Shown here piece after piece: positions 1,338 through 31,336 of a DNA stretch of 64,000 bases. The DNA is taken from positions 53,836,501 through 53,900,500 of the forward strand of contig CP142452.1 in NCBI GenBank assembly GCA_038049695.1. The letters run 5' to 3'. The stretch's first letter is position 1, and each line of letters starts with the position of its first letter. The position numbers and the translations under genes are program-made. The notes under the pieces were generated by a model. That model was not told the origin of the DNA. It saw only the letters and a program-made list of their open reading frames with translations, and made no database searches. Source of the DNA: Cinnamomum chago. Taxonomy: Eukaryota > Streptophyta > Magnoliopsida > Laurales > Lauraceae.

Positions 1338-1882
1338 GCCGTAAAAGGCGATTTTTTTTGGCATTTATAGTCGATTTGTGGCGTTTATAGCCGATTTACA
1401 ATTCTCATCAATAATGAAAGACAAGAGTTGTGGTTTTTTGTCTCTTTAAAAAAAATACAAAATACAATGAAAAGCGAGAAAGGAAGAATCTAACTTTTCA
1501 GGAGATTGTGGGAGGGACCCGTTTAGATTGACGGTCGCGAGTCATGTATGGACTCCGCCATCATCCATGCAAATGAGAACGTCGGATGCTTTGGATTCGC
1601 TTGGCTTGGCTATATCCTCAGACTTTTAGAGAACAAAGACCGAGAGAAGGTCTTATGTTCAATAAAAAGCCGAGTAGAAGGGCTGAAGAGCCATGTCTAA
1701 GCCACTTTTGTTGAAGTAGAAGGTAAAGGACCTTGGGGGGAGTGCCCCGCAAGGGACTTTTGTCACCTTGTAGTGGAGGCTGCTGCGGAATTCCGACAGA
1801 GGTTTCTCTCTCTCTGAGCTTCTGGATCTCTAGAGCAGGAATTGCTGATGATTTCGATCCCCCAGAATGCTTGGAGGGGACT

Positions 1883-1894
1883 CCTATTTATAGG
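1883..1894 (-). promoter_or_regulatory. TATA box of the Tat LTR promoter
   Basis: The - strand reads CCTATAAATAGG. The same box is present in the other two Tat LTR copies at 5923-5934 and 28940-28951, in otherwise alignable sequence. It places U3 to the right (+ coordinates) and R/U5 to the left. Transcription would start about 30 bases beyond it on the - strand. Confidence 0.7.
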
Positions 1895-2596
1895 CCTTTA
1901 GGTAGCCTTTAGGAGTGATTTATGAGCCTTTATGGTAATAAAGCTCATTAAGGGAGGAGTTACAAGTTTAATTGTCTCTTGCTTTGTAACTCCTGCCCCT
2001 TGGATTTCATTGGCCGGAGGAGAGTCATGGGCATTTAATCGCCTTTAATCTCCATTATGTTAGGAGTTTCATGGCTTGAATGCCATGATTGTTTGGACTT
2101 GTAACTCCTGAACAGAGGCTTCTGATTGGGCCGTCCAAGATAATGGGTTAATGACTGCGTTAACTTGCCATAAACGGGCCAATTGATAGCATTAAGTGGC
2201 CGCCTTAGTAGCTGAAGAGTCGCGGGCCATGTTGCGTCTTTTGGAATCCCCTTTGCGATGATCATCGATGGATCCTTATGTAAATCAACATCAGATGATC
2301 ATGTAGTTTCAGACATTGGTTGTACCAGCGGGCCGGCAGCATCTGTCCAGTTGATTTCACGATCGGGTGGGCAGAAAGTGCACTTTTTTGGTTGTTCGGC
2401 TGGCGATCAATGAAGTTTTTGAAGTTCTGGAAAGGAGTCCTGTGATCTTGATGAATATCAGTGAATTTGGAGCCTCAAAAGCCTGAATCTGGAAAAATCA
2501 CAGGGACAGAACAACTCGTCTCGGGAAAATGGACGAAACGGGGGGTCCCGGGGCGAAATCGGCGCCCCGGACCTCCCAGGGTCGCCGGGCCCATGG

Positions 2597-2626
2597 CCCA
2601 GGGTCGCAGGGGCCTGCGACCCTGGG
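2597..2626. repeat. Perfect 14 bp inverted repeat in a GC-rich block of the Tat LTR
   Basis: Arms CCCAGGGTCGCAGG (2597-2610) and its exact complement (2613-2626) are separated by two bases, inside a GC-rich block at about 2550-2655. The same palindrome is at 29654-29683. In the solo LTR the block (about 6590-6725) is enlarged by CGACCATGG-type repeats. Confidence 0.8.
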
Positions 2627-2846
2627 GGAAAAATCCATTCCCGGGGCCCCTTTTTTGCCGTTTCTCGTCGTTTTTCGCTTCCGTTTTTTTTTTCTTGTTT
2701 TCTCTGACATTTCTCCACATTATTTGGCTTGATTTCCCTCTGAAAAACCTGATGAGAATCCTTGCAAATTGGTTTGCAAAGTTTCTGATTTTCCGGGAAA
2801 AGCCGAACGCAGAACTGCTGATTTTCCGCCAGAAGCTGAAACAGGA

Positions 2847-3830
2847 TCAAACGATGTCGGAATGACCTGAAATTTGAGGTGAAGCTTCTTGAGCATTAAA
2901 TAAGACCAACCATGGGCTTTCGTTTGAGTTTTGAAGCCATTTGGGGTCATGCAAATGCTTGCCTTTGATTTCACCGCGAGGGAAATGCCGAGCTTTGACT
3001 TTTGGTCAAACGATGTCCGATTGACCTGAAATTCGAGGGTGACTCCCTCATCAGTAGATAAGACCAACCACAGGCTTTTGTTTGAGTTTTGAAGCCATTT
3101 GGAGTCATGCAAACGCTTGCCTTTGATTTCACCGCGAGGGAAATGCCGAGCTTTGACTTTTGGTCAAACGATGTCCGATTGACCTGAAATTCGACGGGTG
3201 ACTCCCTCATTTGTAGATAAGACCAACCATAGGCTTTCGTTTGAGTTTTGAAGCCATTTCGCGTCATGCAAACGCCTGCCTTTGATTTCACCGCGAGGGA
3301 AATGCCGAGCTTTGACTTTTGGTCAAACGATGTCCGATTGATCTGAAATTCGACGGGTGACTCCCTCATGAGTAGATAAGACCAACCACAGGCTTTCGTT
3401 TGAGTTTTGAAGCCATTTGGAGTCATGCAAACGCTTGCCTTTGATTTCACCGCGAGGGAAATGCCGAGCTTTGACTTTTGGTCAAACGATGTCCGATTGA
3501 CCTGAAATTCGACGGGTGACTCCCTCATCAGTAGATAAGACCAACCATAGGCTTTCGTTTGAGTTTTGAAACCATTTGGAGTCATGCAAACGCTTGCCTT
3601 TATTTCACCGCGAAGGAAATGCCGAGCTTTGACTTTCGGTCAAACGATGTCCGATTGACCTGAAATTCGACGTGTGACTCCCTCATCAGTAGATAAGACC
3701 AACCACAGGCTTTCGTTTGAGTTTTGAAGCCATTTGGAGTCATGCAAACGCTTGCCTTTATTTCACCGCAAGGGAAATGTCGAGCTTTGACTTCTGGTCA
3801 AACGATGTCCGATTGACCTGAAATTCGACG
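2847..3830 (-). repeat. Tandem repeat of 158-159 bp in Tat LTR U3
   Basis: The marker GGTCAAACGATGTCC recurs at 3004, 3162, 3321, 3480, 3638 and 3796, with diverged units at 2847 and near 3945 and 4091. Each unit carries TTGAC/GGTCA cores, a TGACTCCCTCAT segment and TTTGAGTTTTGAAGCCATTTGG. The matching array in the other outer LTR runs about 29901-30880. The solo LTR (6941-7450) has fewer units, so copy number has changed. Where the period is 159 (3 x 53) the - strand stays open across several units. Confidence 0.9.
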
Positions 3831-4280
3831 AGGAGCCTATTGGAGTCATTTTGAGATGATCAACAAGCTCCGAATTGGGTGCCATGGTCCCGGGGTGCTC
3901 TGCCGCTGGTAGGCTTGATTCAGCCGTTGGAGAGTTGATGATGGGTCAAACGTTGCTGGTTTGACTTGAGACTTGACGTGGAGCCCTTTGGACATATTTT
4001 GAGAACATCCATAGGCCCTGATCGAAGATTTGGTGCCTCCGATTCTGCCGCCGCCGGGAGGGCTTGTTTAGCTGTTGGAGAAGTGAAGCTAGGCCAAATG
4101 ATGTCGGAATGGCCCGAAACTTCATGTGTACCTCTCTTTTGGTTGTTTTGAATGACCTTGCAGTTTTATTTGATTCTGACAAGATCTGATGCTTGAAGTG
4201 GCGCCTGCCTATTTTTGGTAGGATGCGGCTCCATGTAGCTTTTGGTGTAAAGAGGCAAAGTGACATTTTTGGTGTCAACA

Positions 4281-8212: not shown

Positions 8213-10718
8213 AGAAAGTTTTCTTTCTTCTTTTTTCTCATCATGACAATGCATCCCTTTTTTTTTTTGTTGCATATCAAGATGTTCATACATGCTTTTG
8301 TTTTTGTAACAATTGATAGCATGATGTGGTGACATACCTGAAAACCTTTGCAAAGTTAGGAATTTGGAGCTTGCAGCAATGTTGAGCCCTTCCTGATTTT
8401 GCGGAGTTTTTCAAGGTTTCGAAAGTTTGGAGTTTTGGAGCTCGCAGTGATGTTGAGCCTATCTCCAAGCTTTCTATTTCTGTCGGGGTACTTCTTTTTC
8501 TTTGGAATTGCCCCGAGGTCATGCCGAAATTTCGCCAGATTTTTTTTAGCAAAATTTCGTCATTTTGATGATAATTCTTTCCTCCTTTTTTTTTTTTGAC
8601 CTTTTGCAGGTGGTCCTTCCAGAACAGACAAGGGTAAAGAACCTATCACAAGCGTACCTCGTCGATCTGCGCAATCTTCTAATCCGGCCGTCCAGCAGGC
8701 CTGGGAGAAGGTGCAATACATCGAGCAGCACCTCGAGGAGTGTGACTCCCTCAATAGAGAGGAGGCGCGGCAGGCACTGATTGCTCGCAAAGGAGAGGAT
8801 TTCTATAAAATCATGGTAAGCAGCCGTCCCTGGGTGATAGAGGATCAGAGGGTGTTGCCCAAGCCTACCTTCTTCTTTGGTGATGCAGCCCCAGCCGATA
8901 TGACGTATCGAAGGAGATGCTTCCAGTTTTCCTACACAGTTGATGGTGTGAAGAAAACTGTTGCCACCCGATCGACTTTTGATCGTACTATCTCGATCAT
9001 GAGTCTCTCTCCCACGTGCCTGAAGAGGGAAGATCCTCCAAGATGGGTGAGGAGGACCAACGTGGTCAAGACCCGGGTTTTCATTGGTGGTTCTCCTGGA
9101 CATATGGAGAAGTCGCCTGCTGACATGGACATCTTGATGCCGGCCAGCAACTACCAGGGCACAGATTATCCATCGGTTGATTTGAAACCGATGGGCCTTG
9201 GCATCTTCAGTGGTGACGGCAGCAACTGGGTGAAGCCTTTTCGACTCCGCGGCCGCTTCAGTGCTGACTCCGAGTGGAAGTCTTGGACTGACCATATCTT
9301 GTTTGTTGGGGGCACCATTTTGAAGGAAGCCGGGATCTTTGATGCGGTCCGTGCATTTAGGGAGACCGTGATCTTTTCCGACGAGGCCTTCATGGCCATG
9401 CTTGAGTCATTCCTCCCTCAAACCAATACCTTCATAGTGACGAATGGTGAGATTGGTTTTTCTCTGAAGGAACTGAGTGCCGTTACCGGGTTGCCCATCC
9501 TCGGGAAACTCTATGAGGAGTTCATGCCGATTGACAGCGTCCTTGAGGAGAGGTCAGAGGAATTCAGGCTTTTATACTTTCAGCTCGTCATCTTCTACGA
9601 TTTTTTGAAGGAGAAGGAGGGCTCGAAGGTAAGGTCTAGCAGCTGGAAGAGTTTCGGCTCTTCTTTTCTCAGTTTCCTTGACAGCAAGGGGCCTTCTACC
9701 AGTATGTCCAGGGAGGACAAGAAGACTGCGGCCATGCAAGAGGAGCTGAAGGGTTTCTTCGCAGGTACCAGTAGTATTTGTTCTGATATCGCACTACGGA
9801 GAGATCTTGCTGTTTACCTCACATATTGGTTTGGTGAGGCTATTTTTGCTGGAGGAGATGGGACGCACATCCGGCCGCATTGTATTTTTCCGGCTTGTCA
9901 GATGGCGTTTGGAGAGCAGCTAGCTTTGGTGCCAGCTTTATACTCCTATTTGTGCACTGAACTGCAGGCAGCTGCTTTCTTGGTCCGGCTTGGGCAACCC
10001 ATGAACAGGGTATTTTCCGCCCATGTTTTCTATTCGTGGTTTGTATACCACTGTCCCGGCTTCCATCGGCTGGGTGCTGCGCAGGACGACGACCCTTTGA
10101 TGATTCGATTGGCTAAGGGAAAAGCCGTAGTCGAATCTCTTTTGTTTGCCCGCATGAGGATCCGACGATTCAGGGACGTCGAGATGGGGCAGTCTTCAAT
10201 GAAGCTTTCTCCGGAGTTGCGGAAGAAGGCTTTTGATTTTGGTGCCTCCCGCGACTCTACCAGGGCAGGATCTGGAAGGCACTACTCCTTGACGAATGCA
10301 GAGAAGGAGTGGCTTTTTAGCATACGAGTCGGCACGATGGTATACCGCAGACATCTTTTTGTCGACATCCAACCGTATGTGCCTTCCCGCTTTGCACTGC
10401 AGCTGGGCTTTTCTCAAGGCGTTGTTGGAGCGCCTTCAAGCATGATGAAGCGCTTTGGAAGCTTGCAGGATGGGAGAAACGCATGGGCTTTCTATAGCGC
10501 TAAGGACACTACTTCCATGATTTCCTATCCTGTACTGCCGACTTCCCGGACTGCCGGTTTCACGAAGTGGTTCGTGGAGAGCTTCATGGCATACCGGGGT
10601 TTTTCCAAGAGGGAGCTTGATGTGAAGCTGTCATCTGGAAAGGGCCTTGGAAAATCAGATGGCGTCCGGCGGGAGGAAGTTTGGGCCTTCCTTTCCGGAG
10701 AGAAGCACAAGATAGGCT
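8087..10718 (+). CDS. Plant mobile domain (PMD) protein, 5' part, antisense in Tat-1 (interrupted)
   Basis: A short first exon (ATG at 8087-8089, ten coding bases) ends at a GTAAGT-type donor at 8097. A T-rich intron runs to a TTTTGCAG acceptor at 8609, and the main exon is then open from 8610 to 10718, where a nested SIRE-like element interrupts it. I recognise the family from motifs: PQTNTFIVTNGE followed by FSLKELSAVTGLP (about 170-200 codons into the main open stretch counted from 8711), a YEEF segment, and RPHCIFPACQMAFGEQ further on. These are typical of PF10536 (aminotransferase-like plant mobile domain). PMD proteins occur as host genes (MAIN/MAIL family) and inside retrotransposons; their molecular role is poorly known. 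The gene runs against gag and occupies the usual place of an additional ORF between pol and the 3' LTR. Apart from the large insertion this stretch is fully open. The PMD family call is firm; the exon-intron model is an inference. Confidence 0.78.
8097..8609 (+). other. Predicted first intron of the PMD gene
   Basis: The donor is AAGTAAGTT at 8095-8103 and the acceptor CTTTTGCAG ends at 8609. It contains long poly-T tracts (8172-8212, 8258-8269, 8588-8597), as in the gene's other introns. A downstream exon begins in frame with the long open stretch. It is not tested by transcript data. Confidence 0.55.
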
Positions 10719-11216
10719 TGTTAGGGATTTTGTATTTGCAATTTGATGGATGCATTTGCACTTTAGCATCATTTGAATTCACACACTAGCATTGTTTTTA
10801 GAAACCTTGAAATCTAGTTTTATTCATGCATAGCTTTTAAGATTTGGAAAAGCTTTTGTTTTATGCATGGTTTGGTTTTAAACTTGGATGCATTGGTTTT
10901 GAAACTCAAACTCTTTTGAAAACCTAATTCATTGTGCATTATATTTGGAAAATCATCTTGTCAATTTAGGTTTGAACTTTGCATACATACATCCCTTCAT
11001 AATCATATATGTATGCATTGTTTTTGAAAAAGGAGTTTTTAGAAATCAAGCTAGCCTATGGTTTAAAGTTTTGAATCTTTTTAGGCTTTGTGTGTTTCAT
11101 GTTTTTATACATCTTTGAATGATTTAAAACATGTGAAAAAGCTTGATTTTAATGGCCCAAAAGATCCCCAAAGAAAATCTTCAAGAAACCCAAAATATGG
11201 GAAAATCTGGGCAGGC

Positions 11217-11397: not shown

Positions 11398-11403
11398 TAT
11401 AAA
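11398..11403 (+). promoter_or_regulatory. TATA box of the SIRE-1n LTR
   Basis: TATAAA in GGGGATATAAATGAG, identical in the 3' LTR. It lies just downstream of the GGTCAACC cluster and upstream of the 34 bp repeats, as expected for the U3/R boundary. Confidence 0.65.
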
Positions 11404-12605: not shown

Positions 12606-12618
12606 TGGTATCAGAGCC
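12606..12618 (+). promoter_or_regulatory. Primer-binding site of SIRE-1n (initiator tRNA-Met)
   Basis: TGGTATCAGAGCC, complementary to the 3' end of plant initiator tRNA-Met, begins three bases after the LTR. This is the standard Ty1/copia primer site. Confidence 0.92.
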
Positions 12619-12718
12619 AAGTGCTCTATCCCTTAAGATCAAGTGTTTGGAACTCTTGATTAGGTGTAAAAACCTAGAGTAAAAACCCTAGAGTTGTGCT
12701 TATTTGAAAATCATTAAA

Positions 12719-14293
12719 ATGGACTCCACTATGCTAGACTTTGTAGATTCTTCTAGACCCCTCATTCTTCCTTCTATTGGAGATTCAAACCCTCACTTAA
12801 ATGAATATCAATTTGACTCAAAAGAGGAAGAAAATGAGTATGATGAAGATGATCTTCAACAAGCCTATAATGAATTATATACATTATCTTCAAAGCTTGA
12901 TAAAAGAAATAGAAGTTTAAGAGAAGAATCTATAAAACTAAACAAAGAGCTAGTCTCTTCTAAAGATGAACTTAGAGAGAAAGAAGAAGTCATTAATTGT
13001 TTAGAATCTAAGTTCATGATCTCTTTAAATAACCAATCTAACATTCAAGATGAACTAAGAGAATTAAAGATGGGTTATGATGATATCAATAAGGAAAATC
13101 TAAAATTAAGAGATCAATTACAAAGGCAAGATAAAGACTTTAACAATCTTGAATCTAAATTGACTATCTCTAAGGAAAATTTATCTAATACTCAAGATGA
13201 ATTAAATGAGATTAAGATAAATTGTGATGAGCTTAAAAATGAAAATTTGAACCTAAGAGATACAATTAAAAGACAAGATGAAAACATTAACTATTTAAAA
13301 TCCAAGTTGACAATTTCCAATGAAAATTTGTCTAATGCTCAAAGTAATTTAAAAACTCAAGAACTTGGATCTAGAGTTGTTAATGAACTAAAACATGAAT
13401 TAAAACTTGCCAATGAAGAGCTAAGCAATTATAAGGAAATTGAAAATGAACTTTCAAAAGTTAAAAATGAAAATTCAATCCTTATAACCAAAGTCACTCA
13501 ACTTGAAAACTATAAACAAAAGTATGAGTGCAAGGTTACCCAAAGTGAAGATAGACTTGAAAAACTATTTAAATTGGGTAAACCTCATGGAGATAGGACG
13601 GGTCTTGGATTTAATAGGAATATGACATATGACCCTAAATTCACCAACACTTTTGTGAAAGGTGAGTCCTCATTCTCTAGCACTCTTTCTCCTTTGCCCA
13701 AAACCAAATGTAATTTTTGTGGCATTGAAGGACATTTTATGTTTGAGTGCAAACTAAGAAAAAGAAGCCATGTGTCTAAACCCATCTTTGAACTCAAGAA
13801 GGGAGAATCTAAATCTATGAAGGGTAAGACACTTAAAAACAAAGAAGACTCCAAAAAGACTAAACAAGTTAAACCATTTAAAATGGAGTCTCCTAAGATA
13901 GATTCTAAAAAGCTTAAACAAGTTAAACCAAGCTTAAAAGAATCTATGAACAAAAAGCTTCTCAACCTACCTCCCTTAAGTCAAAACATGAAAGAACTTT
14001 TGAAGAAAATTACTAAGTTAAATCTAAATTTCAAAAGTCAAAGAAAGGGAGAAAATAAGAAGAAAAGAAAAATGAATCAATCCCCAAAGAAACAAACTCA
14101 CCAACATCAAAAGACTAATCACCATTCTAAGCCAAATTTAGTAAAATCTAAATATCATGGTGATAAGTTCAAATTGAAAATTTATCAAGTTAAATCTCCT
14201 ATAGTTGGTGAGAAGTCCAAAATAGACCTCAAAGTTCAACCCTCCCAAGACCTTAGGTGGATTCCTAAAGTTATCTACTTAGACAAACCTTAG
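12719..14293 (+). CDS. SIRE-type Gag (C-terminal part: coiled coil plus zinc knuckle)
   Basis: Open frame of 524 residues from the ATG in TTAAAATGGACTCC. Residues about 30-280 are a long heptad-like, Lys/Glu/Asn-rich coiled coil built from repeats such as LRDQLQRQDKD, KLTISKENLSNTQ and KLTISNENLSNAQ. Near residue 331 is one CCHC knuckle, CNFCGIEGHFMFEC, which would bind nucleic acid in the particle. A very basic region follows, and the end RWIPKVIYLDKP matches the WVPK-type end of SIRE Gag. The N-terminal UBN2-like capsid domain usual for SIRE Gag is not present, so this resembles the GAG-only proteins of TR-GAG elements. It is intact and the sole gene of its element. Whether it still assembles particles with an autonomous partner is unknown. 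Confidence 0.82.
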   Translation: MDSTMLDFVDSSRPLILPSIGDSNPHLNEYQFDSKEEENEYDEDDLQQAYNELYTLSSKLDKRNRSLREESIKLNKELVSSKDELREKEEVINCLESKFMISLNNQSNIQDELRELKMGYDDINKENLKLRDQLQRQDKDFNNLESKLTISKENLSNTQDELNEIKINCDELKNENLNLRDTIKRQDENINYLKSKLTISNENLSNAQSNLKTQELGSRVVNELKHELKLANEELSNYKEIENELSKVKNENSILITKVTQLENYKQKYECKVTQSEDRLEKLFKLGKPHGDRTGLGFNRNMTYDPKFTNTFVKGESSFSSTLSPLPKTKCNFCGIEGHFMFECKLRKRSHVSKPIFELKKGESKSMKGKTLKNKEDSKKTKQVKPFKMESPKIDSKKLKQVKPSLKESMNKKLLNLPPLSQNMKELLKKITKLNLNFKSQRKGENKKKRKMNQSPKKQTHQHQKTNHHSKPNLVKSKYHGDKFKLKIYQVKSPIVGEKSKIDLKVQPSQDLRWIPKVIYLDKP

Positions 14294-16280
14294 GGCCTTG
14301 AACATCCTTGACCAACCTATTCTTTTTAAGTTATATCATTTTGTTGGTCATGTTGCTTTGCATTTTGTTTCTTTTAGTTACATTTATTAAAATGCATTGC
14401 TTCTTTATGATCATTTGATTTTGTTTTCATGCACCTTTCTAAGTTACATGTCATGGTTTTCAAAATCTTTTGATTATAATTTCATCATGTTAGTTTTGCT
14501 CTTTGCTCACATTTAGTTTTATGTTTTGCATTGCATTTCTACATGATTAATTGATTGTGATTTCAAAAGCTTTCATAGCTAGGTTTTTCATGATCAATTG
14601 TTGTTAAATCATTTGATGAATGTCTTAGTTAGATCCTTTTTGTAAATCAAATGATTTGAATCAATTCAAGTTTTTCCATGGTTTTATAAGTTAAACTTTT
14701 ATATGGAAAATCATTGTTTTGAAAAATCAACTTGTATGTGTTTCATTTAAGTTATATCTTCTAAAATACAAAGTTGAAAATTGATCTTCAAAATCATTCC
14801 TTTTATGCTCATTGTAGGATTTTGTTGATTTGAAGATTGTTTGAATGGAAATGCTCTATAACCTCTTTAGTTATATTCATCTAAGCATGTTCCATGGTCT
14901 CATTTCCTTTTTATTTTGGTTTCATTATCTTAGAATTGGAAATGAATGTTGTTTGCATCTTTGCTTATTTAGTTATTCTTTTTATATGCTAATGACTTTT
15001 GGTTCCATGTATGGTTGTGATCTAAGTTACATTTGTAGAAACCATACTAGAACCCAAATCCATCCTCTATGCCTTATAGTCATATCTATTTGGATGGTTA
15101 TGATGTTGATTCATGTGATTTCTCTAAGTGATTTAATCCTTATACATGTTTCAACTTCATAAGTAGTGTTCTTAATCATATGAAACTCTTTGAAACCCAT
15201 TTCTCATATTTCTATATGTTTTATGAATATCTTAGATGTTGAATTCATATGATTTTGACACTTTGGAAATTATATGCTTTACCAAGTAATATCATTTTGC
15301 ATTGCAATTTACCTTGTTCATCACTATGCTCAATAGTCATATCCTTAAAAGTGATGAATATGCATTAATGATGCTTGATGGAAGTTTGTCACATCCTTGC
15401 TTTTATTCATGTTATCATATTCAATTGGTTTCATTTGGTATAACTTTCCATTGATTTCATATCCAATTGATATCTTATCTTGTGTATGTGATAGACCTTG
15501 TGTACATTGGATTGAACTTGATAGTAATATATTTTTTCCATGTCACACACCATTAGCATCATAATGTTCATGTTGCCACCTCTCTTGCTCTTATAGGTAT
15601 ATCTCATGACCACCATATTTATGTATTCATAATCTTGGTTGGTTATTAGTTGAGGTTGGCTTCATGCTTGAAATTCATTTCACTCATTCTTGCACATTAA
15701 TAGTCATATTTATTGTTTGAATGAAATGATTTCAAAACTTACATAGCATATGATTTTCATAAGTTATATTGATTGATGCTATGTTTGAATAAACCCCATT
15801 GCATCATGGATAGCTCTTATTTGGATTTTTCCTAATAGTAATATTCTTAAATCCATTTTAGAGTGATTGAGTTTATAGTCACATCCTTTAATCTCAATTG
15901 ATATGTTTATTTCAATTGGTATCCATGATCGTTTCTCTCATTAGACCTTGCTCTCTTTTGGTAATTTGATCATATGAGCCTTATAGTTAAATGAATCTAA
16001 TCCTTTCCTTGAAGTTGACCCTCACTTGGTTAAACCATCTTCTTCTTGCACCTAATAGTTATATCTTGTCAAAAGCTTGACAAAAGAAGAGAATGGATTG
16101 AGGGGGAGTGTAAACCTTCATAGGAAGTATTAGTTTGATCAAATTCACCCTTGGATTGCCTTTGAGCCCTTAGAGATAACTTTCATGCATGATAGCCTGT
16201 TATGAATTTCATTTTCAATTCCATTTGTTAACAGGTGCTACTAAAGGTATTCTTCTTGTTTCATGTGTGTAGGTACCTTT
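14294..16280 (+). other. AT-rich noncoding interior of SIRE-1n
   Basis: About 2 kb with no supported coding frame; short open frames such as 14845-15162 are hydrophobic and AT-driven. A motif AGT(T/C)ATAT(C/T) recurs roughly every 50-300 bases (about 14330, 14750, 14865, 15082, 15338, 15707, 15764, 16049). Near 16220-16280 there is weak similarity to the end of the env-like region of the other SIRE-like element (41380-41470). Confidence 0.6.
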
Positions 16281-16289
16281 GCAATTTAA

Positions 16290-16724
16290 TGTCAAAGGGG
16301 GAGAGAGAGTTCAAGTGTGACTCAAAGATCTCCTACTCTTCAAAGGGGGAGAGAGTTCGAGAGTTCAAGTACTCGAAGATCTCCTATCCATCAAAGGGGG
16401 AGAGTTGTCCAAGCTTCCAAAGGGGAGAGAATGCATACCTTGCCAAAGGGAGAAAGAGGCATGGTCAAAGGGGGAGAGTAAATAGAAGAAAGAAAGCTTG
16501 GAGCTAAAGAAGATGCTTGGCTAAAGAGAGGAAGATGAAAAGAAAGCTTGAAGAATGATCAAGCTCCAAGCATCAAGAAGATTGAAGAAAAGAGCCCAAG
16601 AGCCCAAGCTAAGAGAAGAAGCATCCAAGAGGATTTCAAGACTTGTCCAGCTTAGGGGGAGCTGAAGACTTAGTGTGAAATGTCAATGATGAGTAAGTTG
16701 CCATCAAATTGCAAAGGGGGAGAT
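16290..16724 (+). promoter_or_regulatory. Repeated polypurine tracts before the SIRE-1n 3' LTR
   Basis: CAAAGGGGGAGA-like tracts occur near 16292, 16339, 16391, 16418, 16443, 16466 and 16650, and the final one (16712-16724) abuts the 3' LTR and is the expected plus-strand primer. A similar cluster precedes the 3' LTR of the other SIRE-like element (41473-41786). Confidence 0.75.
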
Positions 16725-18592
16725 TGTTAGGGATTTTGTATTTGCAATTTGATGGATGCATTTGCACTTTAGCATCATTTGAATTCACACACTAGCATTG
16801 TTTTTAGAAACCTTGAAATCTAGTTTTATTCATGCATAGCTTTTAAGATTTGGAAAAGCTTTTGTTTTATGCATGGTTTGGTTTTAAACTTGGATGCATT
16901 GGTTTTGAAACTCAAACTCTTTTGAAAACCTAATTCATTGTGCATTATATTTGGAAAATCATCTTGTCAATTTAGGTTTGAAATTTGCATACATACATCC
17001 CTTCATAATCATATATGTATGCATTGTTTTTGAAAAAGGAGTTTTTAGAAATCAAGCTAGCCTATGGTTTAAAGTTTTGAATCTTTTTAGGCTTTGTGTG
17101 TTTCATGTTTTTATACATCTTTGAATGATTTAAAACATGTGAAAAAGCTTGATTTTAATGGCCCAAAAGATCCCCAAAGAAAATCTTCAAGAAACCCAAA
17201 ATATGGGAAAATCTGGGCAGGCCCGGTCAACCGGCCATGTGTGGCCGGTCAACCGGCCAAGAGGCCCGGTCAACCGGCCAGACTGCCGGTTAACCGGGTT
17301 TCTGAAGCTCAAACGGGCATTTTTATGACCGTTGTGCTTGGCCGGTCAACCGGCCATGACCGGGGATATAGCCGTTGGGCTGTTTTGGGGATATAAATGA
17401 GTTCTTTCCTTTGTCTTTGGTTGGAGATTTTGAAACCCTCTTTGAGGAGCTTTGAGAGAAGACAAATGGGATGATCTAAGAGACATCAAGGGGTCATTAA
17501 GTAAAGCTTAAGCTTGGATCAACTAAGTTAAATCTCCAAGTAAGTTTTACTTTTAATTAATCATTTGTTATGTGCTTTATTTGAATCTTTGGAAAATGAT
17601 TTCAAGCATGATAACAATGATGTGTTGAATCCTTTCTTCCTTTAATCTTTGATATTCAAGATTGAATTCATCACTTTGTTTTCAACCCAAGTTTTGTTTT
17701 AAACTTTCTTAATCATGCTTTGCCTAAATCTTTGATTTCCTTTACATAGCATGATTCTTTTTCTTGGTTGAAACATTGCTTGTTGTTTTCATTCATTTAA
17801 ACATTAGTTAAATTAATTTGGTTTTGAAAACAACATGCACATGCATCACATGTTCTAAATTAGTCATTTTCATACAACTTGTTAGTCTTTGATTTTCATG
17901 TCATTAACAAGTTGAATTTCATACATGTGATTTGCATAAGACTTCAATCAAATCTTTTATGAGCTTTAAACTTTGAATTGCTTTAAGCAATATATTGAAT
18001 GAGCTTTCTTTTTAAACTTGATTGGAGTCATCACACACACACTTCATAAGCATACATCTTTGCATTCATTGAGTTTGTGTGAATTAGGATTTTAACTTTC
18101 ATATTAGCCTATTCAAGAGGCAATTTCATTTGAGCTTCAATTGTAATCTCTTAGAGTGATCTTTTGTGAAGACACTTTCTTTGAGAAATCTTCATTGTGT
18201 AAGGTTATTGCTTAGCCTTTGAAAAGCATCTTGTAAGGTTATTGCTTAGCCTTTGAAAAGCATCTTGTAGGGTTATTGCTTAGCCTTTGAAAAGCATTTT
18301 GTAAGGGTTATTGCTTAGCCTAGTTAAAAGCATAAATAGTGGAAATCCGGTGGGGTGATTGGTTCACAAGCCGGTAGTGGATGTAGGCACGTTGGCCGAA
18401 CCACTATAAATATTGTGTTGTGGTGATTGCTTTTGTGGTGATTGTTTATTTGAGCTTCCGCATATTGTATGTGTAATCATCACATGTGACTAGTTTTTAT
18501 TAAGAAGTTAAAATTGGTTTAAATTGGTCATAGTTGTAGCTCACCCTATTCACCCCCCCCCCCTCTAGGGTTAGGATCCTCGTGGACTTTCA
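16725..18592 (+). repeat. 3' LTR of SIRE-1n
   Basis: Nearly identical to 10719-12603. It differs by about five substitutions, loss of one GGTCAACC unit, a two-base indel and poly-C length. It ends GTGGACTTTCA before the TSD AGGCT. Confidence 0.93.
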
Positions 18593-20257
18593 AGGCTTTC
18601 TCGGTGACCAGGGCGTCATTGGCTCTGAGGCTGCTCGGGAAATAGCTGATGAAGCTATAGAGCAGCTAGAACAGGAGGAAGCCGAACTTGATGCTTGGAT
18701 GCAAGCAGCACAGAGGCGAGTTTCCGTGGAGTCTACTGGCAAGAGCAGGCCATCCAGTGAGGAGTCAAGCGAGAGACCAGACTCTGATGGTGGGGCAGGT
18801 TCTTCTAAGAAGCGAACTCGCCGAAGTAAGAGGAAGAGGAGTCAGCATCACAATAAAGACTCTTCTGATAAAGAAGTTCCTCTTACTATCAATGAGGAGG
18901 TGCCCGAGGTTGCTGAGGAGCCTCCGGAAAAAAGGAGCCGAGAAGAAGATACCGTTGGTGGAGGTATGTTTCCACTTCTCTCTGTTCCTTTCATGGTATT
19001 TTTCCATATTTTGATTTGCTTCTGCTTCTGCTTTTTTTTTTCTTTTTTTTTTTTTATAGCAGAAGAGGAAGACATGGCGATCCCTCATGTTGCAACCGAT
19101 GAGAGGACGCCTGACCCTGTGGAGACGCCAGAAGACAAACCAAGGGACTCTGAAATGAATGCAGAATCTCCAACTGGTATTACTTTTTCCGCTTTCTTTT
19201 CTTTTTTGTCTGTGACTTGATTTGCTAACACACATTTTTTTTTTGTATCAGCTGATTTATCACAGGATTCCGACGACTTTGAACCATCGATGGACGCCAG
19301 TGTTGACGATACTTCCGATGAGTTCATGGAGAAGGAAAGCATTCCGCCAATCGTCGAAGAAGGTACTTTCATAGTAATAACCCTGATAGTGATTTTTAAC
19401 AGGATCATATTCATACCTTTTTGTGTTTGGCAGATTTTGAAGTGACAGAAGAGAGTCCATCGCTTCCTTCAGAGCCAGAGCCAGGGATGCCAGAAGTTGA
19501 CCCAGTAATTGGGACTCCTCCAGCCAATTCTGACGCGGCAGAGGCAAGACCTCATGTTGAGATTCCTTCTCCAGCGGCCCCGATTGGAAAGTGTTCTGTT
19601 GTTACTCTTCCGATGGGACATGACTTGGGCAGCCAATCCACAGAGAAAGGTGAGTCTTCATCTGGCCCATCTCTTCAATATGCGAAGAAGGTGGTGATGC
19701 GGGTTTTGAGCTCTTGGATTGAGACCCTCCTTTCTGGACACTTGGATGTTGCACGTAGCAAGATTCCGCATGTGAAGGAGATTCTCAAAGATGCTGAGGA
19801 TGATATTGGTCTAGATGTTACGGACGCCCGGGCGATCGTTGATAGGATCATTGCATTAGGCAACAGGTGGGTTGAGACCATCAGCTATCCTGATGACCAG
19901 TTCTTCCAAGAGATGTTCATGAACCCTGCTGAGAAGGCTCAATCGGAATTGAAAGAGACTGCACAGGGCAGGAAGCAGCTGGTTCGGGAGAGGAACCGAG
20001 CGGAGTTAGACATCATCAGGCTGCAGTATGACCTTAACATCCTTGATGGAGAGGTTGAGGAGGCAAGGAAGCATCTCGAACACTTAAAAGCCCAAGTCTC
20101 CAGTACGTGGACCGCTATGACAGAGGCTCGTGACAGGGAGAGTGCTTTGATTTGCCAAGTTGCAGAGGCCGATCAGATTCTCAATAGGAAGGCTAGAGAG
20201 AATGAACGATGGCAGATTGCTCGGGATAATCTTCCTGGTGTAGCAGAAGGGATATAG
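18593..20257 (+). CDS. PMD protein gene, 3' part: charged linker and coiled-coil tail (antisense in Tat-1)
   Basis: It lies beyond the SIRE-1n insertion. The coding stretches are separated by three short T-rich introns with GT-AG ends: about 18964-19059, 19177-19251 and 19363-19433. The first stretch is acidic, then strongly basic (RSKRKRS-type, a likely nuclear signal). The middle ones are acidic and Pro/Glu-rich. The last (19434-20257) ends in a coiled coil rich in Glu, Arg and Leu (ELKETAQGRKQLVRERNRAELDI onwards is the start of it, in part). The stop is TAG at 20255-20257. Coiled-coil tails are common in PMD proteins. Intron calls rest on in-frame openness and splice signals only. Confidence 0.68.
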
Positions 20258-20536
20258 CCTTCTCCAGCTACTCATGGCAGATTCTTGAAGAAGCGTGCCT
20301 TGGAGACTCTGACGGATGAAGCCAGGAGTTTGCTTGAAGAGCTGAAAGCTTGGCTGGAGAGCATTTTTGGCTGAGGCCTTGTTGTTTTTTTTTTTTTGGT
20401 ACCACATGTATTTTTTGGTACTTTTTTTTTTGTTTTCCCTACGCTCACTCAAATATTGTGATTAAAGTGATTGCTAAATGGGATGTGATCAAAAGTTTGT
20501 CATTTTGTGAGAAATCTTTTGACAAATGATTGTTTT
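20258..20536 (+). other. Downstream flank of the PMD gene
   Basis: Noncoding stretch after the PMD stop with T-rich runs (20381-20397, 20422-20431). A polyadenylation site is likely here, but no signal can be fixed. No other feature seen. Confidence 0.4.
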
Positions 20537-21005
20537 GGCATGGGAGCCAGTTTTTGAGACATGTTTTGGCATGGGAGCCAGATTTTGCTTGCGGCATGAA
20601 AGCCAATTTTTGGGTGGCATCTATAGCCGGATTTGGGTTTATGGCATGAGAGCCAAAATTTTGGATGGCGTGGAAGCCGAATTTTGAGGTGGCGTGGAAG
20701 CCGATTTTGGTGGCGTGAAAGCCAAATTTTGGGATGGCATGAGAGCCAATTTTTTGAGGTGGCATGAAAGCCGAGTTTTGAGGTGGCATGAAAGCCGATT
20801 TTTTTTTAGTGGCATGAAAGCCGGTTTTGGTATGGCATGAGAGCCAATTTTTGTTTTTGGTGTAAGAACCAGATTTTGTTTTTGGCATGAAAGCCGGATT
20901 TTTTGAAAACCGAATTTTGTTTTGTTGGCATGGAAGCCGAATTTTGATTTTTGGCATGAAAGCCGGATTTTTGGCATGGAAGCCGGGTTTTTTGGCGTGA
21001 AAGCC
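20537..21005. repeat. Array of mini-hairpins GGC-N6-GCC in Tat-1
   Basis: About 18-20 units of the type GGCATGAAAGCC separated by T-rich spacers, 20-35 bases apart. The inner six bases vary (ATGGGA, ATGAGA, GTGGAA, GTGAAA), while the GGC/GCC arms hold or change together: one unit reads GGTGTAAGAACC. The unit GGCATCTATAGCC at about 20614 matches GGCATTTATAGCC in the LTR (28418). The array lies where pol would be expected. Confidence 0.85.
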
Positions 21006-21026
21006 AGGTTTTTGGTTTTCAAAAAT

Positions 21027-21414
21027 GCAAGTATCGACTAAAAATCGCCTCCCTGCTGAATGGTATTGCAAGTATCGATGGAATGTCGCCTCCTTGCTCA
21101 TTCGGTTGCGAGTATCGATGGAATGTCGCCTCCCCGCGGATTTGGGTGCAAGTATCGACTAAGCGTCGCTTCCCTGCTTTTTTCTTCAAAAATTTTGTTT
21201 TGTGGGTATCGATGGAATGTCGCTTCCCCACGATTTTTGAATTTTGAGGTTTTTTCGAACCTTTGTTTTGTTTTTGTTTGTTTTGAAATTTGGGTTGTGG
21301 ATATCAACTGGAACGTTGCGTCTCCACGATTTTGGGGTTTTGGAAGTATCGAATGGGGTTCGCATCCTTCCGATTTTGGGTTTTGCAAGTATCGACTGAA
21401 CGTCGCTTCCCTGC
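21027..21414 (-). repeat. Array of eight about 30 bp hairpins with compensatory stem changes in Tat-1
   Basis: The units are at 21027, 21068, 21108, 21148, 21202, 21297, 21342 and 21385. Each has an outer 5 bp stem and an inner stem around a 5-6 base loop. Outer arms change together: GCAAG/CTTGC, GTGGG/CCCAC, GTGGA/TCCAC, GGAAG/CTTCC. Inner arms also do: CGAC/GTCG, CAAC/GTTG, CGAA/TTCG. In the units whose arms mismatch as A and C on the + strand (GCAAG/CCTGC, GCGAG/CCCGC) the - strand RNA has a U-G pair, so all eight outer stems close in the element's sense RNA. Function unknown. Confidence 0.82.
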
Positions 21415-21842
21415 GGTTTTTTGAAAAACCATTTTTTGTTTAAAGACACGAGGGTCGTAAATTTTGACTCAAAACCATTTTGGTGGTAAAAGCCGGGGTG
21501 GACTAGGGCTGAAATCCCTAGGTCCTGATTTTGTTTCAAACCATGAATTTTGGGTTCAAGGATCGAAAATTTTGGTCAAGTTTGGGAAGAGGCTCCTAAA
21601 CTTGGATTTTTGGATTTGCTTTTTTTTTTTGAACAATGAAACGATGAAAGAAACATTGTTTTGAGGGGTTTTTTTTTTTAGAAATTTCAACAAGAGGATG
21701 AAAATTCCAAAAGGAGTGGGTTTGACGAGCAGATACCTAGGAATAGGCTTTGGCCGTGCAGGCGTCGCTCTGACCCGATGGGGAAAGCCTTCAAGGGTAG
21801 TACCGCTTCAAGAACTTTCCATTGATGGGCAGCATACATCTG
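21415..21842 (-). other. Noncoding stretch between gag and the hairpin arrays of Tat-1
   Basis: No domain of protease, RT or integrase was recognised directly downstream of gag, and no repeat was seen. A poly-T run is at 21621-21630. Confidence 0.5.
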
Positions 21843-23795
21843 TCACCCTCCATGTTTAGAGGTTGCAATGGAAATTGGCTCCTTCTTTGATGACTTTTGA
21901 CTGTTGAGGTCTTTGATCACCGTTTCAGCCTCCATAGAAGCTTCTAGGAGTTCTCCCTGGTTTTTTGATTTGTTGCCGATGATCATGGAACGGATTCTTG
22001 TTCTCATGTTGTTACGGCAGATGTCGACTAGCGACGCTTGTGGCAATACATCTGAGCATTTGTACGCCATGGCTTTCCATTTGTGAATGAAGTCGTATGT
22101 AGACTCATTCTCCCCCTGTTTCAGGCTGCAGAGCTGAGCCATAGTAACAGGATGATCCTCACCTTTGAAGTGAGTCAAGAAGCGTGTCTCCAGCATGGCC
22201 CAATTCTGAATGGAGTTCTCTGGAAGAGTGGAGTACCAATCAAAGGCCGTACCTTTTAGGGTGCTTGCAAAGAGGCGAATCTTGAGTGCATCTTGATCCG
22301 CAATAGCTCCTGTCAGGATCTTGAAGTGGATGACATGCTGTCTGGCTGAACCTTTCCCCGTATACGTTTGGAGAGTAGGTTGCTTGAATTTTGTAGGGAA
22401 CGGGACCGAGTCCATCCACAAGGGATATGGTGGCTTGATCCCATGCTCCTTTAGCGTATCCTCTTCTTTTGCTTTGGCGAGGATATTGTCAACGTCCTTT
22501 TTGGTAAGGGCGCGTGACTCACTATTTTCCGCATTTTCCTCGTTGCCTTGGTGGCTCGGAGGAACTTCATTATTTGGCGGATGTTGGATAGTGAGAAGGA
22601 GGTTTTCCATTAGGGCCTCTATTCTCTGTTGTCCTTGTTCCAGCTGCTGGATGCGTGCAGCTACGTCATCATGTGACGGAGGTTGCTCAGCATTTGTGAC
22701 CAAGACGTTCACTCTTCGAGAGTCGAAAGAGGATACAGTCTTGGTGACTGAGCTAGAGCTCATTCTTTTAGATGAAGAGCTCGAAGAGTGATCACTCCGA
22801 TGTCCTTGGCTTGAAGGAGCGGGAGAGTTTTCTTTATGTCTTCGTGTCCGGGAGACGCTGCGGGTCACCGGACGCCTGACATGGATTTTTGTTGCTGACT
22901 TCTGGCGTCTTCTGGTTTTGCCAACCATATGGACTGCATCAATTTGGTTGGGTCTTTCTTTTTCAACCCATTTTTGGGAAACTTGGAGAGTAGGAGGTTG
23001 AGTCCTCCGTTTCTCTAGTCTCTTTTGTCGGTATGACGCGCGGCGGCGTGCTCGACGAGCGAGTTGAGCCTCGGTCAGCTCTGGCTGGGCTTTGACGATG
23101 AAGGATGTACTCCCTCGGGCGCAGCAGCCGAGCTTGTCTTCTTTGAAGTTAGGCAAGGACAGGATGCGGACCCGGTCCTTCGCCTGTTGCAGCGAGGCTT
23201 TGAATTGTGCAAGCTCGGCCCCTGTAGAGATGAAGGGTCGAACTGCAGTTTTGCAGGCCTTAGCAAACACTTGGGGAGGCCTGGTGATGTAGGATTTGAT
23301 TTTTGGCTTGTAGGAACAAGCTGGTTGATGCTGAATTGACCTGGGAGTCAGGTCAGAGATGGGTTTCTCCTCTTTCATGTAGAAGAGAGGGTAGAACCGG
23401 TTTTCTTTGAGCGGGGCCAGGTATGCTGGCTTGGCAGATGCTCGGGACCTCCTTTGTTTCGGTGAAGGCCCTGGGGACCAAGTCTTGGGACGGACCTGGC
23501 TGTTTGCGGGCTGAGGCTTCGCGGGGGTCGCCTTTGGTGTCACGGCGGTGACACATTGGGAGGCGATTTTCTGCTTCTTAGCGGGAGCAGCCTGTTCTTC
23601 AGGAAGTGGGAATGGTCCCAATGTCCCAAAGAAAATAGTCCGGGGAGTCGAGGTCGACCCGGAGTTTGGTGAATTGTTGGTGGTGTTGACGCTGTGGCAA
23701 CTAGCAGTGCGCTTATGAGTGCGCACATTCTGCTTCTGTTGAAGCATCTGCTGGTGCTTTTTCTCGTCGAAGGTGATGGTCAAGGAAGCTGCCAT
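21843..23795 (-). CDS. Tat-lineage Gag
   Basis: An intact 650-residue frame from the ATG at 23795. The N-terminal half is basic and Ser/Pro/Gln-rich without a recognised domain (KRRTQPP, RSVSRTRRHKENSP). Near residues 370-400 is a QQLEQGQQRIEALMENLL coiled segment. From about 440 to 640 is the retrotransposon gag domain (PF03732 type), with FKQPTLQTYTGKGSARQHV, AFDWYSTLP, WAMLETRFLTHF and GENESTYDFIHKWKAM. This capsid type is characteristic of the Tat/Ogre group. No zinc knuckle is seen before the stop, and no pol follows, so the element depends on others for enzymes. Its length and openness suggest recent activity. Confidence 0.85.
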   Translation of the reverse strand: MAASLTITFDEKKHQQMLQQKQNVRTHKRTASCHSVNTTNNSPNSGSTSTPRTIFFGTLGPFPLPEEQAAPAKKQKIASQCVTAVTPKATPAKPQPANSQVRPKTWSPGPSPKQRRSRASAKPAYLAPLKENRFYPLFYMKEEKPISDLTPRSIQHQPACSYKPKIKSYITRPPQVFAKACKTAVRPFISTGAELAQFKASLQQAKDRVRILSLPNFKEDKLGCCARGSTSFIVKAQPELTEAQLARRARRRASYRQKRLEKRRTQPPTLQVSQKWVEKERPNQIDAVHMVGKTRRRQKSATKIHVRRPVTRSVSRTRRHKENSPAPSSQGHRSDHSSSSSSKRMSSSSVTKTVSSFDSRRVNVLVTNAEQPPSHDDVAARIQQLEQGQQRIEALMENLLLTIQHPPNNEVPPSHQGNEENAENSESRALTKKDVDNILAKAKEEDTLKEHGIKPPYPLWMDSVPFPTKFKQPTLQTYTGKGSARQHVIHFKILTGAIADQDALKIRLFASTLKGTAFDWYSTLPENSIQNWAMLETRFLTHFKGEDHPVTMAQLCSLKQGENESTYDFIHKWKAMAYKCSDVLPQASLVDICRNNMRTRIRSMIIGNKSKNQGELLEASMEAETVIKDLNSQKSSKKEPISIATSKHGG

Positions 23796-24320
23796 TGTTA
23801 GTAAACTTCTGAAACAGGACCAGATTCATTAGTAATCACAAGAATATAATGATTATAAATGGAAAAAAAGGGCAATCTATGGGTTTGCCTTTTCAGATCG
23901 CTCAAGGGATATGACCCAGGCGACGTGAGGAAGGCAAAAGCCATAGAGGGCACAATTGTTCTGATTGCAAGTATGGTGAGCCCCAAAATGAGCGTCCCAG
24001 TGACTGCTAGAAGCAATTGTAAACCTAAATTCGACTTATCGCGTAGCAGGGCTTGCTCGAGATAAGAAGAATATAAGGTTGGAGTTTTACAAATGCGCCG
24101 GTCGCGAATACAGTAGACCCTGAAAGGGCGTACTAGCACCGCTAGACACAAATGCTGGAGATCGCATCCATGAGATGGGATCCTCTGGTTTTTGAAATGT
24201 CAAAATGGATTCATCAAGGAGAGCATGTGGTATCCCGATCCAAAGACGGACTCAACGATTTCCGCGAGCACCAGTACCCTGGAAGGAACCACAATTTCTC
24301 GGATCCGAACCCAAAATGAC

Positions 24321-28132: not shown

Positions 28133-31100
28133 TGATGGAACGCGCTCCAATGACCCCGGGCGCTACCGGGCGTCGGCGGACGTGGGAGTCCGTTTGGTCC
28201 GACCCTTTCGCCCCCGGAGGGCGGAGCGTGCATCAACGCTTTTGGGTGTTTGGGTGGGTGTGCCAGGTTTTCTATTTTACTTGGAATTGCAAGTGATGAT
28301 CCGGAGATCAATCTTCGCAAGTAAAAAAGGAAATCAACTTCTTTTCAAGTTTCCATTGCATATATATTTAAGAAAAGAGACAGTTTTTTATTTTGCCGTA
28401 AAAGGCGATTTTTTTTGGCATTTATAGCCGATTTGTGGCGTTTATAGCCGATTTACAATTCTCATCAATAATGAAAGACAAGAGTTGTGGTTTTTTGTCT
28501 CTTTAAAAAAAATACAAAATACAATGAAAAGCGAGAAAGGAAGAATCTAACTTTTCAGGAGATTGTGGGAGGGACCCGTTTAGATTGACGGTCGCGAGTC
28601 ATGTATGGACTCCGCCATCATCCATGCAAATGAGAACGTCGGATGCTTTGGATTCGCTTGGCTTGGCTATATCCTCAGATTTTTAGAGAACAAAGACCGA
28701 GAGAAGGTCTTATGTTCAATAAAAAGCCGAGTAGAAGGGCTGAAGAGCCATGTCTAAGCCACTTTTGTTGAAGTAGAAGGTAAAGGACCTTGGGGGGAGT
28801 GCCCCGCAAGGGACTTTTGTCACCTTGTAGTGGAGGCTGCTGCGGAATTCCGACAGAGGTTTCTCTCTCTCTGAGCTTCTGGATCTCTAGAGCAGGAATT
28901 GCTGATGATTTCGATCCCCCGGAATGCTTGGAGGGGACTCCTATTTATAGGCCTTTAGGTAGCCTTTAGGAGTGATTTATGAGCCTTTATGGTAATAAAG
29001 CTCATTAAGGGAGGAGTTACAAGTTTAATTGTCTCTTGCTTTGTAACTCCTGCCCCTTGGATTTCATTGGCCGGAGGAGAGTCATGGGCATTTAATCGCC
29101 TTTAATCTCCATTATGTTAGGAGTTTCATGGCTTGAATGCCATGATTGTTTGGACTTGTAACTCCTGAACAGAGGCTTCTGATTGGGCCGTCCAAGATAA
29201 TGGGTTAATGACTGCATTAACTTGCCATAAACGGGCCAATTGATAGCATTAAGTGGCCGCCTTAGTAGCTGAAGAGTCGCGGGCCATGTTGCGTCTTTTG
29301 GAATCCCCTTTGCGATGATCATCGATGGATCCTTATGTAAATCAACATCAGATGATCATGTAGTTTCAGACATTGGTTGTACCAGCGGGCCGGCAGCATC
29401 TGTCCAGTTGATTTCACGATCGGGTGGGCAGAAAGTGCACTTTTTTAGTTGTTCGGCTGGCGATCAATGAAGTTTTTGAAGTTCTGGAAAGGAGTCCTGT
29501 GATCTTGATGAATATCAGTGAATTTGGAGCCTCAAAAGCCTGAATCTGGAAAAATCACAGGGACAGAACAACTCGTCTCGCGAAAACGGACGAAACGGGG
29601 GGTCCCGGGGCGAAATCGGCGCCCCGGACCTCCCAGGGTCGCCGGCCCCATGGCCCAGGGTCGCAGGGGCCTGCGACCCTGGGGGAAAATCCCTTCCCGA
29701 GGCCCGTTTTTGGCCGTTTCTCGTCGTTTTTCGCTTCCATTTTTTTTGCTTGTTTTCTCTAACATTTATCCACATTATTTGGCTTGATTTCCCTCTGAAA
29801 AACCTGATGAGAATCCTTGCAAATTGGTTTGCAAAGTTTCTGATTTTCCGGGAAAAGCCGAACGCAGAACTGCTGATTTTCCGCCAGAAGCTGAAACAGG
29901 ATCAAACGATGTCGGAATGACCTGAAATTTGAGGTGAAGCTTCTTGAGCATTAAATAATACCAACCATGGGCTTTTGTTTGAGTTTTGAAGCCATTTGGG
30001 GTCATGCAAACGCTTGCGTTTGATTTCACCGCGAGGGAAATGCCGAGCTTTGACTTTTGGTCAAACGATGTCCGATTGACCTGAAATTCGACGGGTGACT
30101 CCCTCATCAGTAAATAAGACCAACCACAGGCTTTTGTTTGAGTTTTGAAGCCATTTGTTGTCATGTAAACGCTTGCCTTTGATTTCACCGCGAGGGAAAT
30201 GCCGAGCTTTGACTTTTGGTCAAACGAAGTCCGATTGACCTGAAATTTGACGGGTGACTCCCTCATCAGTAGATAAGACCAACCATAGGCTTTTGTTTGA
30301 GTTTTGAAGCCGTTTGGCGTCATGCAAACGCTTGCCTTTGATTTCACCGCGAGGGAAATGCCGAGCTTTGACTTTTGGTCAAACGATGTCCGATTGACCT
30401 GAAATTCGACGGGTGACTCCCTCATCAGTAGATAAGACCAACCATAGGCTTTCGTTTGAGTTTTGAAGCCATTTGGAGTCATGCAAATGCTTGCCTTTGA
30501 TTTCACCGCAAGGGAAATGCCGAGCTTTGACTTTTGGTCAAACGATGTCCGATTGACCTGAAATTCGACGGGTGACTCCCTCATCAGTAGATAAGACCAA
30601 CCATAGGCTTTCGTTTCAGTTTTGAAACCATTTGGAGTCATGCAAATGCTTGCCTTTATTTCACCGCGAAGGAAATGCCGAGCTTTGACTTTCGGTCAAA
30701 CGATGTCCGATTGACCTGAAATTCGACGTGTGACTCCCTCATCAGTAGATAAGACCAACCACAGGCTTTCGTTTGAGTTTTGAAGCCATTTGGAGTCATG
30801 CAAACGCTTGCCTTTATTTCACCGCAAGGGAAATGTCGAGCTTTGACTTCTGGTCAAAAGATGTCCGATTGACCTGAAATTCGACGAGGAGCCTATTGGA
30901 GTCATTTTGAGATGATCCACAAGCTCCGAGTTGGGTGCCATGGTCCCGGGGTGCTCTGCCGCTGGTAGGCTTGATTCAGCCGTTGGAGAGTTGATGATGG
31001 GTCAAACGTTGCTGGTTTGACTTGAGACTTGACGTGGAGCCCTTTGGACATATTTTGAGAACATCCATAGGCCCTGATCGAAGATTTGGTGCCTCCGATT

Positions 31101-31336
31101 CTGCCGCCGCCGGGAGCGCTTGTTTAGCTGTTGGAGAAGTGAAGCTAGGCCAAATGATGTCGGAATGACCCGAAACTTCATGTGTACCTCTCTTTTGGTT
31201 GTTTTGAATGACCTTGCAGTTTTGTTTGATTCTGACAAGATCTGATGCTTGAAGTGGCGCCTGCCTATTTTTGGTTGGATGCGGCTCCATGTAGCTTTTG
31301 GTGTAAAGAGGCAAAGTGACATTTTTGGTGTCAACA
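28133..31336 (-). repeat. 5' LTR of Tat-1
   Basis: 3,204 bp, TGTTGACACC at 31336 to CCATCA at 28133 on the - strand. It shows the same internal order as the 3' LTR: 158 bp tandem array (29901-30880), GC palindrome (29654-29683), TATA box (28940-28951), then GCC/GGC mini-hairpins (28394-28460). The flank to the right is Copia-1 gag. Confidence 0.88.

Follow-up and report, generated by a model that had tools for sequence, protein, structure and literature searches.

An array of eight short hairpins with covarying arms lies behind the end of pol in the tail of a Tat-type Ty3/gypsy retrotransposon in the window, the whole 64-kb stretch of DNA that was analysed. The pairing pattern of the array is beyond chance by most measures and the array is real. 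It is best explained, with a probability of about 40%, as a repeated module that is predicted to bind protein and to act in cis in the 3' non-coding part of the sense RNA of the element.

Results

The eight hairpin units described in the earlier note were recovered, with the arm pairs it quoted, at the positions given in Table 1. Each unit is 30 nt long with the exception of unit 6, which is 31 nt. In the sense (-) orientation a unit consists of a 5-bp outer stem, a GANG/ATA internal loop, a 3-4-bp inner stem and an apical loop of 5-6 nt when the fourth inner pair is counted, as in unit 8 (GCAGG-GAAG-CGAC-GTTCA-GTCG-ATA-CTTGC). Six forms of the outer stem are present among the eight units of the window. 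The asymmetric GANG/AUA internal loop is invariant across the same units, N excepted. Unit 1 of the window carries a private change at the fourth inner pair, where 39 of 40 copies have G.

Table 1. Positions of the hairpins and of the retrotransposon parts in the window
Feature	Position	Strand	Remarks
Eight-unit hairpin array	21027..21414	-	
Hairpin unit 1	21027..21056	-	outer GCAGG/CTTGC in sense; self-match of the unit model
Hairpin unit 2	21068..21097	-	outer GCAAG/CTTGC
Hairpin unit 3	21108..21137	-	outer GCGGG/CTCGC
Hairpin unit 4	21148..21177	-	outer GCAGG/CTTGC
Hairpin unit 5	21202..21231	-	outer GTGGG/CCCAC
Hairpin unit 6	21297..21327	-	outer GTGGA/TCCAC; inner CAAC/GTTG
Hairpin unit 7	21342..21371	-	outer GGAAG/CTTCC; inner CGAA/TTCG
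Hairpin unit 8	21385..21414	-	outer GCAGG/CTTGC
Second array, 19 small hairpins	20537..21005	-	17 are GGC-N6-GCC; conserved loop; A/C-rich sense linkers
Small hairpin GAC-N6-GTC	21445..21456	-	
6-bp hairpin CTAGGG-N7-CCCTAG	21503..21521	-	
Small hairpins in 5' LTR tail	28395..28449	-	GCC-N6-GGC, GGC-N7-GCC; AATAAA-like stretch (28387-28392) next in sense
5' LTR, part common to 3' LTR	28395..31336	-	98.3% identity; may reach below 28395
3' LTR	1338..4280	-	apparently cut at 1338 by another element
Truncated gag ORF	21843..23825	-	Retrotrans_gag PF03732
Last pol codons, remnant at gag/pol deletion junction	21791..21865	-	ends ...FLKRYYP-stop
Antisense ORF, plant mobile domain	8600..10789	+	PF10536
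Two further ORFs, 226 and 285 aa	18540..20257	+	no Pfam match at E 0.01

The arms of the units change together. The arm-to-arm covariation score of the eight window units was 0.504 compared to 0.240 +/- 0.048 in shuffled units, and none of 500 shuffles scored as high. Paired cells made up 95.8% compared to 84.5% after shuffling (0 of 500 as high), and five of nine pairs were altered on both sides compared to 2.1 in shuffles (2 of 500 as high). One of the five measures, the count of further pair types, was ordinary and not above shuffles (180 of 500 as high). When the partner column was slid by one to three columns as a control, the score was at most 0.155. Adding the units of L240, the most divergent copy read, gave 15 distinct unit rows and a score of 0.442 compared to 0.238 +/- 0.031 (0 of 500), though the rows in all of these comparisons are paralogous units, and the events are few and not independent. 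The claim of compensatory arm changes between units is thus borne out, with a score above all 500 shuffles. The further claim, that this pattern is the trace of selection on RNA structure, is supported in part by the covariation between units but not by conservation at recent depth, as between recent groups of copies the units are no more conserved than their linkers or the neighboring sequence. It is also unsupported as stated because template switching can leave the same signature.

Scanning the 64-kb window with Rfam 15 gave no matches at the gathering score, and a tRNA search found none. A self-cleaving ribozyme was considered and rejected, as no such motif was seen by eye and the Rfam scan was without a match. 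A scan of GTDB with a longer unit pattern returned no matches. In IMG/VR at least 120 stretches matched the unit motif, but among the 80 matches listed there was one per contig, and these were taken as chance.

The element that carries the array lies on the - strand between two LTR copies that can be aligned over 2.94 kb. The LTR pair and a gypsy-type gag (PF03732) place it in Ty3/gypsy, and reverse transcriptase, RNase H, a second RNase H-like domain and integrase were found in two pol-bearing relatives (L199 and L200). The second RNase H-like domain is a hallmark of the Tat lineage. The TRP28 domain (PF04195) of Retand elements was found in none of the three + strand ORFs scanned, and the antisense ORF is of the PF10536 type. 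The window gag had nine protein matches, six of them from Persea americana and one labelled Latilactobacillus sakei; the latter fragment lies on a 2.3-kb contig and is probably plant contamination of a bacterial assembly. By these matches the host is probably a member of the Lauraceae. A different LTR element of 7.9 kb, with LTRs 98.8% identical, is inserted at 10718-18593 and contains an ORF (12692-14293) with a weak zinc-knuckle match. The two further + strand ORFs are perhaps the rest of an antisense gene that was split by this insertion. Tandem repeats of 159 bases are present inside each LTR of the window element (about six copies each, 2847-3830 and 29902-30886) and in a solo LTR (about three copies, 6941-7452).

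Comparison with the relatives accounts for the missing pol. The homology of six of the nine gag relatives ends exactly at window position 21855. Four 10-kb stretches that follow related gag copies were compared with the window. In two of them, L199 and L200, similarity extends through gag as far as about 21855, breaks off, and is picked up again at 21860 after some 6.9 kb. Between the two match blocks both have RVT_1, RT_RNaseH, RVT_3 and rve, and L200 also has gag and a weak protease match; the domain scan covered these two among 12 gag-linked stretches, with the first ORF of L199 left out. Their pol frames are broken by stops or shifts, and the activity of these pol-bearing copies is only putative. 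The end of the pol frame of L200, ...MLPINGKFLKRYYP-stop, can still be read at the junction in the window (21855-21860), where the C-terminus of gag and nearly all of pol, about 6.9 kb, are gone. The same junction was crossed in all seven further window-like copies that were checked, and the absence of pol from the 40 window-like copies is stated on the basis of these seven and the window. Because the remnant of pol is readable and the junction is common to the seven further copies, the window element derives by deletion from a Tat-type Ty3/gypsy element, and this deleted form has been amplified.

The array keeps its place behind pol in these relatives, about 375 nt separating the pol stop from the start of the array (21791 to 21414 in the window, 7971 to 8346 in L200, 2067 to 1693 in L199). 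In the window it sits between the end of pol and the + strand antisense gene. L198 and L201 are interrupted by sequence similar to other repeats, and the array behind L198 was located 10.6-10.9 kb downstream (L242). The array had been proposed to stand in place of pol. This does not hold, as L199 and L200 have both pol and, behind it, the array, and it was a separate deletion that removed pol from the window copy.

A 601-base array probe gave 40 long matches at 94-100%, the window included, when 40 of 1980 first-look candidates from the 1.06-Gb assembly were scored, so there are at least 40 such copies. A second set of 40 gag-linked stretches (L202-L241) was probed at the distance expected behind pol. 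All 40 window-like copies have units, as do two of the four 10-kb stretches (L199 and L200) and 26 of the 40 position-guided stretches. The other 14 position-guided stretches were without a unit match, as were L243 and L244, the neighbors of L241. In total there were 548 unit matches in 68 of 84 sequences. Unit number was eight in 61 copies, 11 in four, nine in L240 and fewer in two; L242, in which parts of two units are lost, has seven. A three-unit block is doubled in the four 11-unit copies.

Divergence and substitutions were counted in the eight-unit arrays only (40 window-like and 21 gag-linked). Between these two groups the divergence was 0.033 for units, compared to 0.031 for linkers and 0.035 for the stretch from pol to the array. 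Inside the units it was 0.056 in apical loops, 0.036 in outer stems and 0.023 in both the internal loop and the inner stems. Over this short divergence the units, taken together, are under no special constraint. L240 differs from the window at 14 of 200 positions of stems and internal loops (outer stems 6/80, internal loop 4/56, inner stems 4/64) compared to 18 of 165 in linkers, a modest rate difference from a single copy. The corresponding counts were 6 of 41 in apical loops and 54 of 411 in the stretch from pol to the array. None of its unit columns is deleted compared to 10 linker columns, and one base is inserted in the loop of the last unit. Its internal loop is changed in three units and differs as much as the stems. 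The counterpart of unit 8 in L240 has GCGGG/CTCGC where the window has GCAGG/CTTGC. Both arms are altered, and conversion from a neighboring unit bearing those arms is possible. The direction of these differences would suit structural constraint, though they come from one copy, in which the internal loop is preserved no better than the stems.

The earlier note also argued that the structure is specific to the sense strand, with all eight outer stems closing there. The stems do close, as 40 of 40 outer-stem cells are paired on the - strand compared to 36 of 40 on the + strand, and the A-C mismatches of units 1, 3, 4 and 8 on the + strand are G-U pairs on the - strand. In the inner stems 29 of 32 cells are paired in sense compared to 31 of 32 in antisense, and the fourth inner pair of units 2, 3 and 5 is a mismatch on the - strand and a wobble on the + strand. 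Over whole units there are standard pairs at 69 of 72 positions in sense compared to 67 of 72 in antisense.

The two strands differ more in predicted folding. In context the eight-unit array had a fold z of -3.99 in sense compared to -0.01 in antisense, and the second, small-hairpin array -5.03 compared to -0.38. The mean outer-stem probability was 0.65 in sense compared to 0.37 in antisense and was higher in sense in all 15 copies examined (of 61), though in many of these 15 the outer stems of ordinal units 1, 6 and 8 were poorly formed, often below one half even in sense. The sense linkers are 55% A, with only 2.0% and 5.7% G in the two arrays, and the antisense strand of the arrays is G- and U-rich. 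The sense advantage arises in large part because A-rich, G-poor sense linkers can hardly pair. Such a composition could serve a function, or it could result from T-rich repeats. Strand-specific folding, which had been suggested as a check, therefore gave a qualified answer, in that sense RNA beats shuffles and antisense RNA does not, but partly through base composition.

Substitutions within stems did not follow the sense strand. A substitution was called shared when it was present in at least three of the 61 eight-unit copies, relative to the commonest form of each ordinal unit. Of 56 stem substitutions, 10 were shared and 46 rarer. Pairing was kept in four of the 10 shared changes in sense compared to eight in antisense, and in 21 of the 46 rarer changes in sense compared to 16 in antisense, so that pair-preserving substitutions in sense were not favored among orthologous units. 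Eight of the 10 shared changes are G-to-A in sense (C-to-T on the + strand), which is what the decay of methylated cytosines on the other strand would give. The pattern of shared substitutions speaks against recent sense-strand selection. The wobble pairs were likewise discarded as proof of such selection, as pair counts are near equal and the shared changes favor antisense. What stands of the claim of strand specificity is better sense folding in context; it does not extend to pair counts or shared changes.

The second array adjoins the eight-unit array. When its loop was searched for with no requirement for pairing, a perfect 3-bp stem was present at 18 of 24 loop matches in 20400-21600 compared to 30 of 648 elsewhere in the window. 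Stem variants GGT/ACC and GAC/GTC were present in most of the 40 copies. Micro-hairpins with a similar six-base loop and flipped stems (GCC/GGC compared to GGC/GCC) are also found in LTR tails, at 28395-28449 and in the solo LTR at 5310-5379. Those in the 5' LTR lie about 500 nt behind a TATA-like sequence (28944-28949), which may be a promoter, just as the AATAAA-like stretch beside them may be a poly(A) signal.

Discussion

Reading the array as a cis-acting RNA module is favored because no shuffle reached its covariation, the internal loop is fixed in the window, the sense RNA folds well, the sense linkers are G-poor and the units are kept in the copies. It is weakened because the units show no extra constraint, pair counts are near neutral, stems of 3-5 bp are weak and the paralogous events are few. 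The array bears on two questions, namely how the RNA of plant LTR retrotransposons is exported and packaged, and why Tat elements retain long tails with repeats behind pol. In the sense RNA the hairpins would project separately from unstructured linkers, and their internal-loop motif, present in several copies, could be bound by a protein, which may be the Gag of the element or a host RNA-binding or export factor. Docking of this protein may aid the export or packaging of the long unspliced RNA, which for pol-less copies would happen in trans of pol-bearing relatives. Small RNAs arising from the array, another function that had been proposed, are considered unlikely, given stems of at most 5 bp.

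It is almost as probable that the array is instead an ordinary tandem repeat of the region between pol and the 3' LTR, whose palindromes were made and mended in DNA by template switching or reverse-transcriptase jumps and have no selected RNA function. About half of surveyed recently active Retand elements have tandem arrays in this region according to the survey, which also notes antisense ORFs there and calls the origin and function of the arrays unknown (PMC11963269). Template switching is described as able to create and maintain hairpins and to fix compensatory changes (PMC8794818). The lack of extra constraint on units at recent divergence, the block duplication in the four 11-unit copies and the near strand-neutral pairing all agree with such an origin. 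However, on its own it leaves unexplained the fixed internal loop of the window amid changing stems, the shortage of G in the sense linkers of two distinct hairpin arrays and the uncorrected G-U pairs in four of eight outer stems. That the internal loop of L240 is no better kept than its stems weighs slightly against the RNA-module reading and in favor of template switching.

The structure might also act in antisense RNA, where it could form 3' UTR hairpins in the mRNA of the plant-mobile-domain gene, or it might serve convergent transcripts as a 3'-end module in both directions. The array does lie downstream of + strand ORFs that end at 20257, between convergent genes, and both the + strand closure of the fourth inner pair in units 2, 3 and 5 and the survival of antisense pairing through most shared substitutions are in keeping with this. 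Such a role is nevertheless improbable, as the antisense fold is no better than shuffles, its outer stems form less often and four of them contain a mismatch on that strand, and the predominance of sense G-to-A among the shared changes is as cytosine decay would give. Last, it is very improbable that the palindromes, short and repeated as they are in an element with a plant-mobile-domain ORF, are DNA sites for a dimeric silencing or transcription factor such as the product of the antisense gene itself, as their half-sites vary (GCAAG, GTGGG, GGAAG; GGC and GCC) while complementarity is kept.

The RNA-module reading can be extended, more doubtfully, to a platform of Lauraceae Tat elements. In this extension GANG/AUA hairpins and conserved-loop micro-hairpins on G-poor linkers, the latter hairpins again in the LTR tail, would recruit protein for export or packaging of full-length RNA and would be kept by deleted copies living off pol-bearing ones. 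If true, this would be a class of plant retrotransposon RNA element that was not found described in the literature searched. Searches for LTR retrotransposons with hairpins, or for compensatory change together with tandem repeats, gave no title on the subject, and none was found on packaging structure in plant elements; both are weak results, with subscription journals thinly covered. The covarying arms and conserved internal loop make the tail behind pol of one Tat element a concrete, testable RNA element, and the amplified deletion derivative, which dropped pol and kept the array, amounts to a natural experiment.

Among known systems, the constitutive transport elements of simple retroviruses are hairpins that have conserved internal loops and lie in unspliced genomic RNA, after the coding region and before the 3' LTR. 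The array resembles them, by description only, as internal-loop hairpins behind a coding region, but it consists of eight separate short hairpins whereas a constitutive transport element is one long hairpin. The animal export receptor of these elements may lack a plant counterpart. Many short hairpins are also characteristic of the mobile palindromic double-hairpin elements of organelle genomes. Unlike these, the array is nuclear and is carried along with a retrotransposon family.

Multi-base compensatory differences between arms are shared with hairpins maintained by template switching (PMC8794818), but template switching is a mutational mechanism and not a family, and it does not predict a fixed internal loop. 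The closest likeness is to Tat/Retand elements. The survey reports an antisense TRP28 (PF04195) ORF between pol and the 3' LTR in 97% of Retand clusters and cluster LTRs of 315-1,194 bp (PMC11963269), and the antisense ORFs of plant LTR elements have been reviewed (PMC7264820). The window element deviates in that its antisense ORF is PF10536 and not TRP28 and its LTR is at least 2.9 kb (compare PMC11963269). Its array units are hairpins with covarying arms, whereas the word "hairpin" is absent from the main text of both accounts (PMC11963269, PMC7264820). It agrees with them in the array region, the adjacent antisense ORF, the copies without coding domains beside pol-bearing ones (PMC11963269, PMC7264820) and, in two of its relatives, a pol with the second RNase H-like domain.
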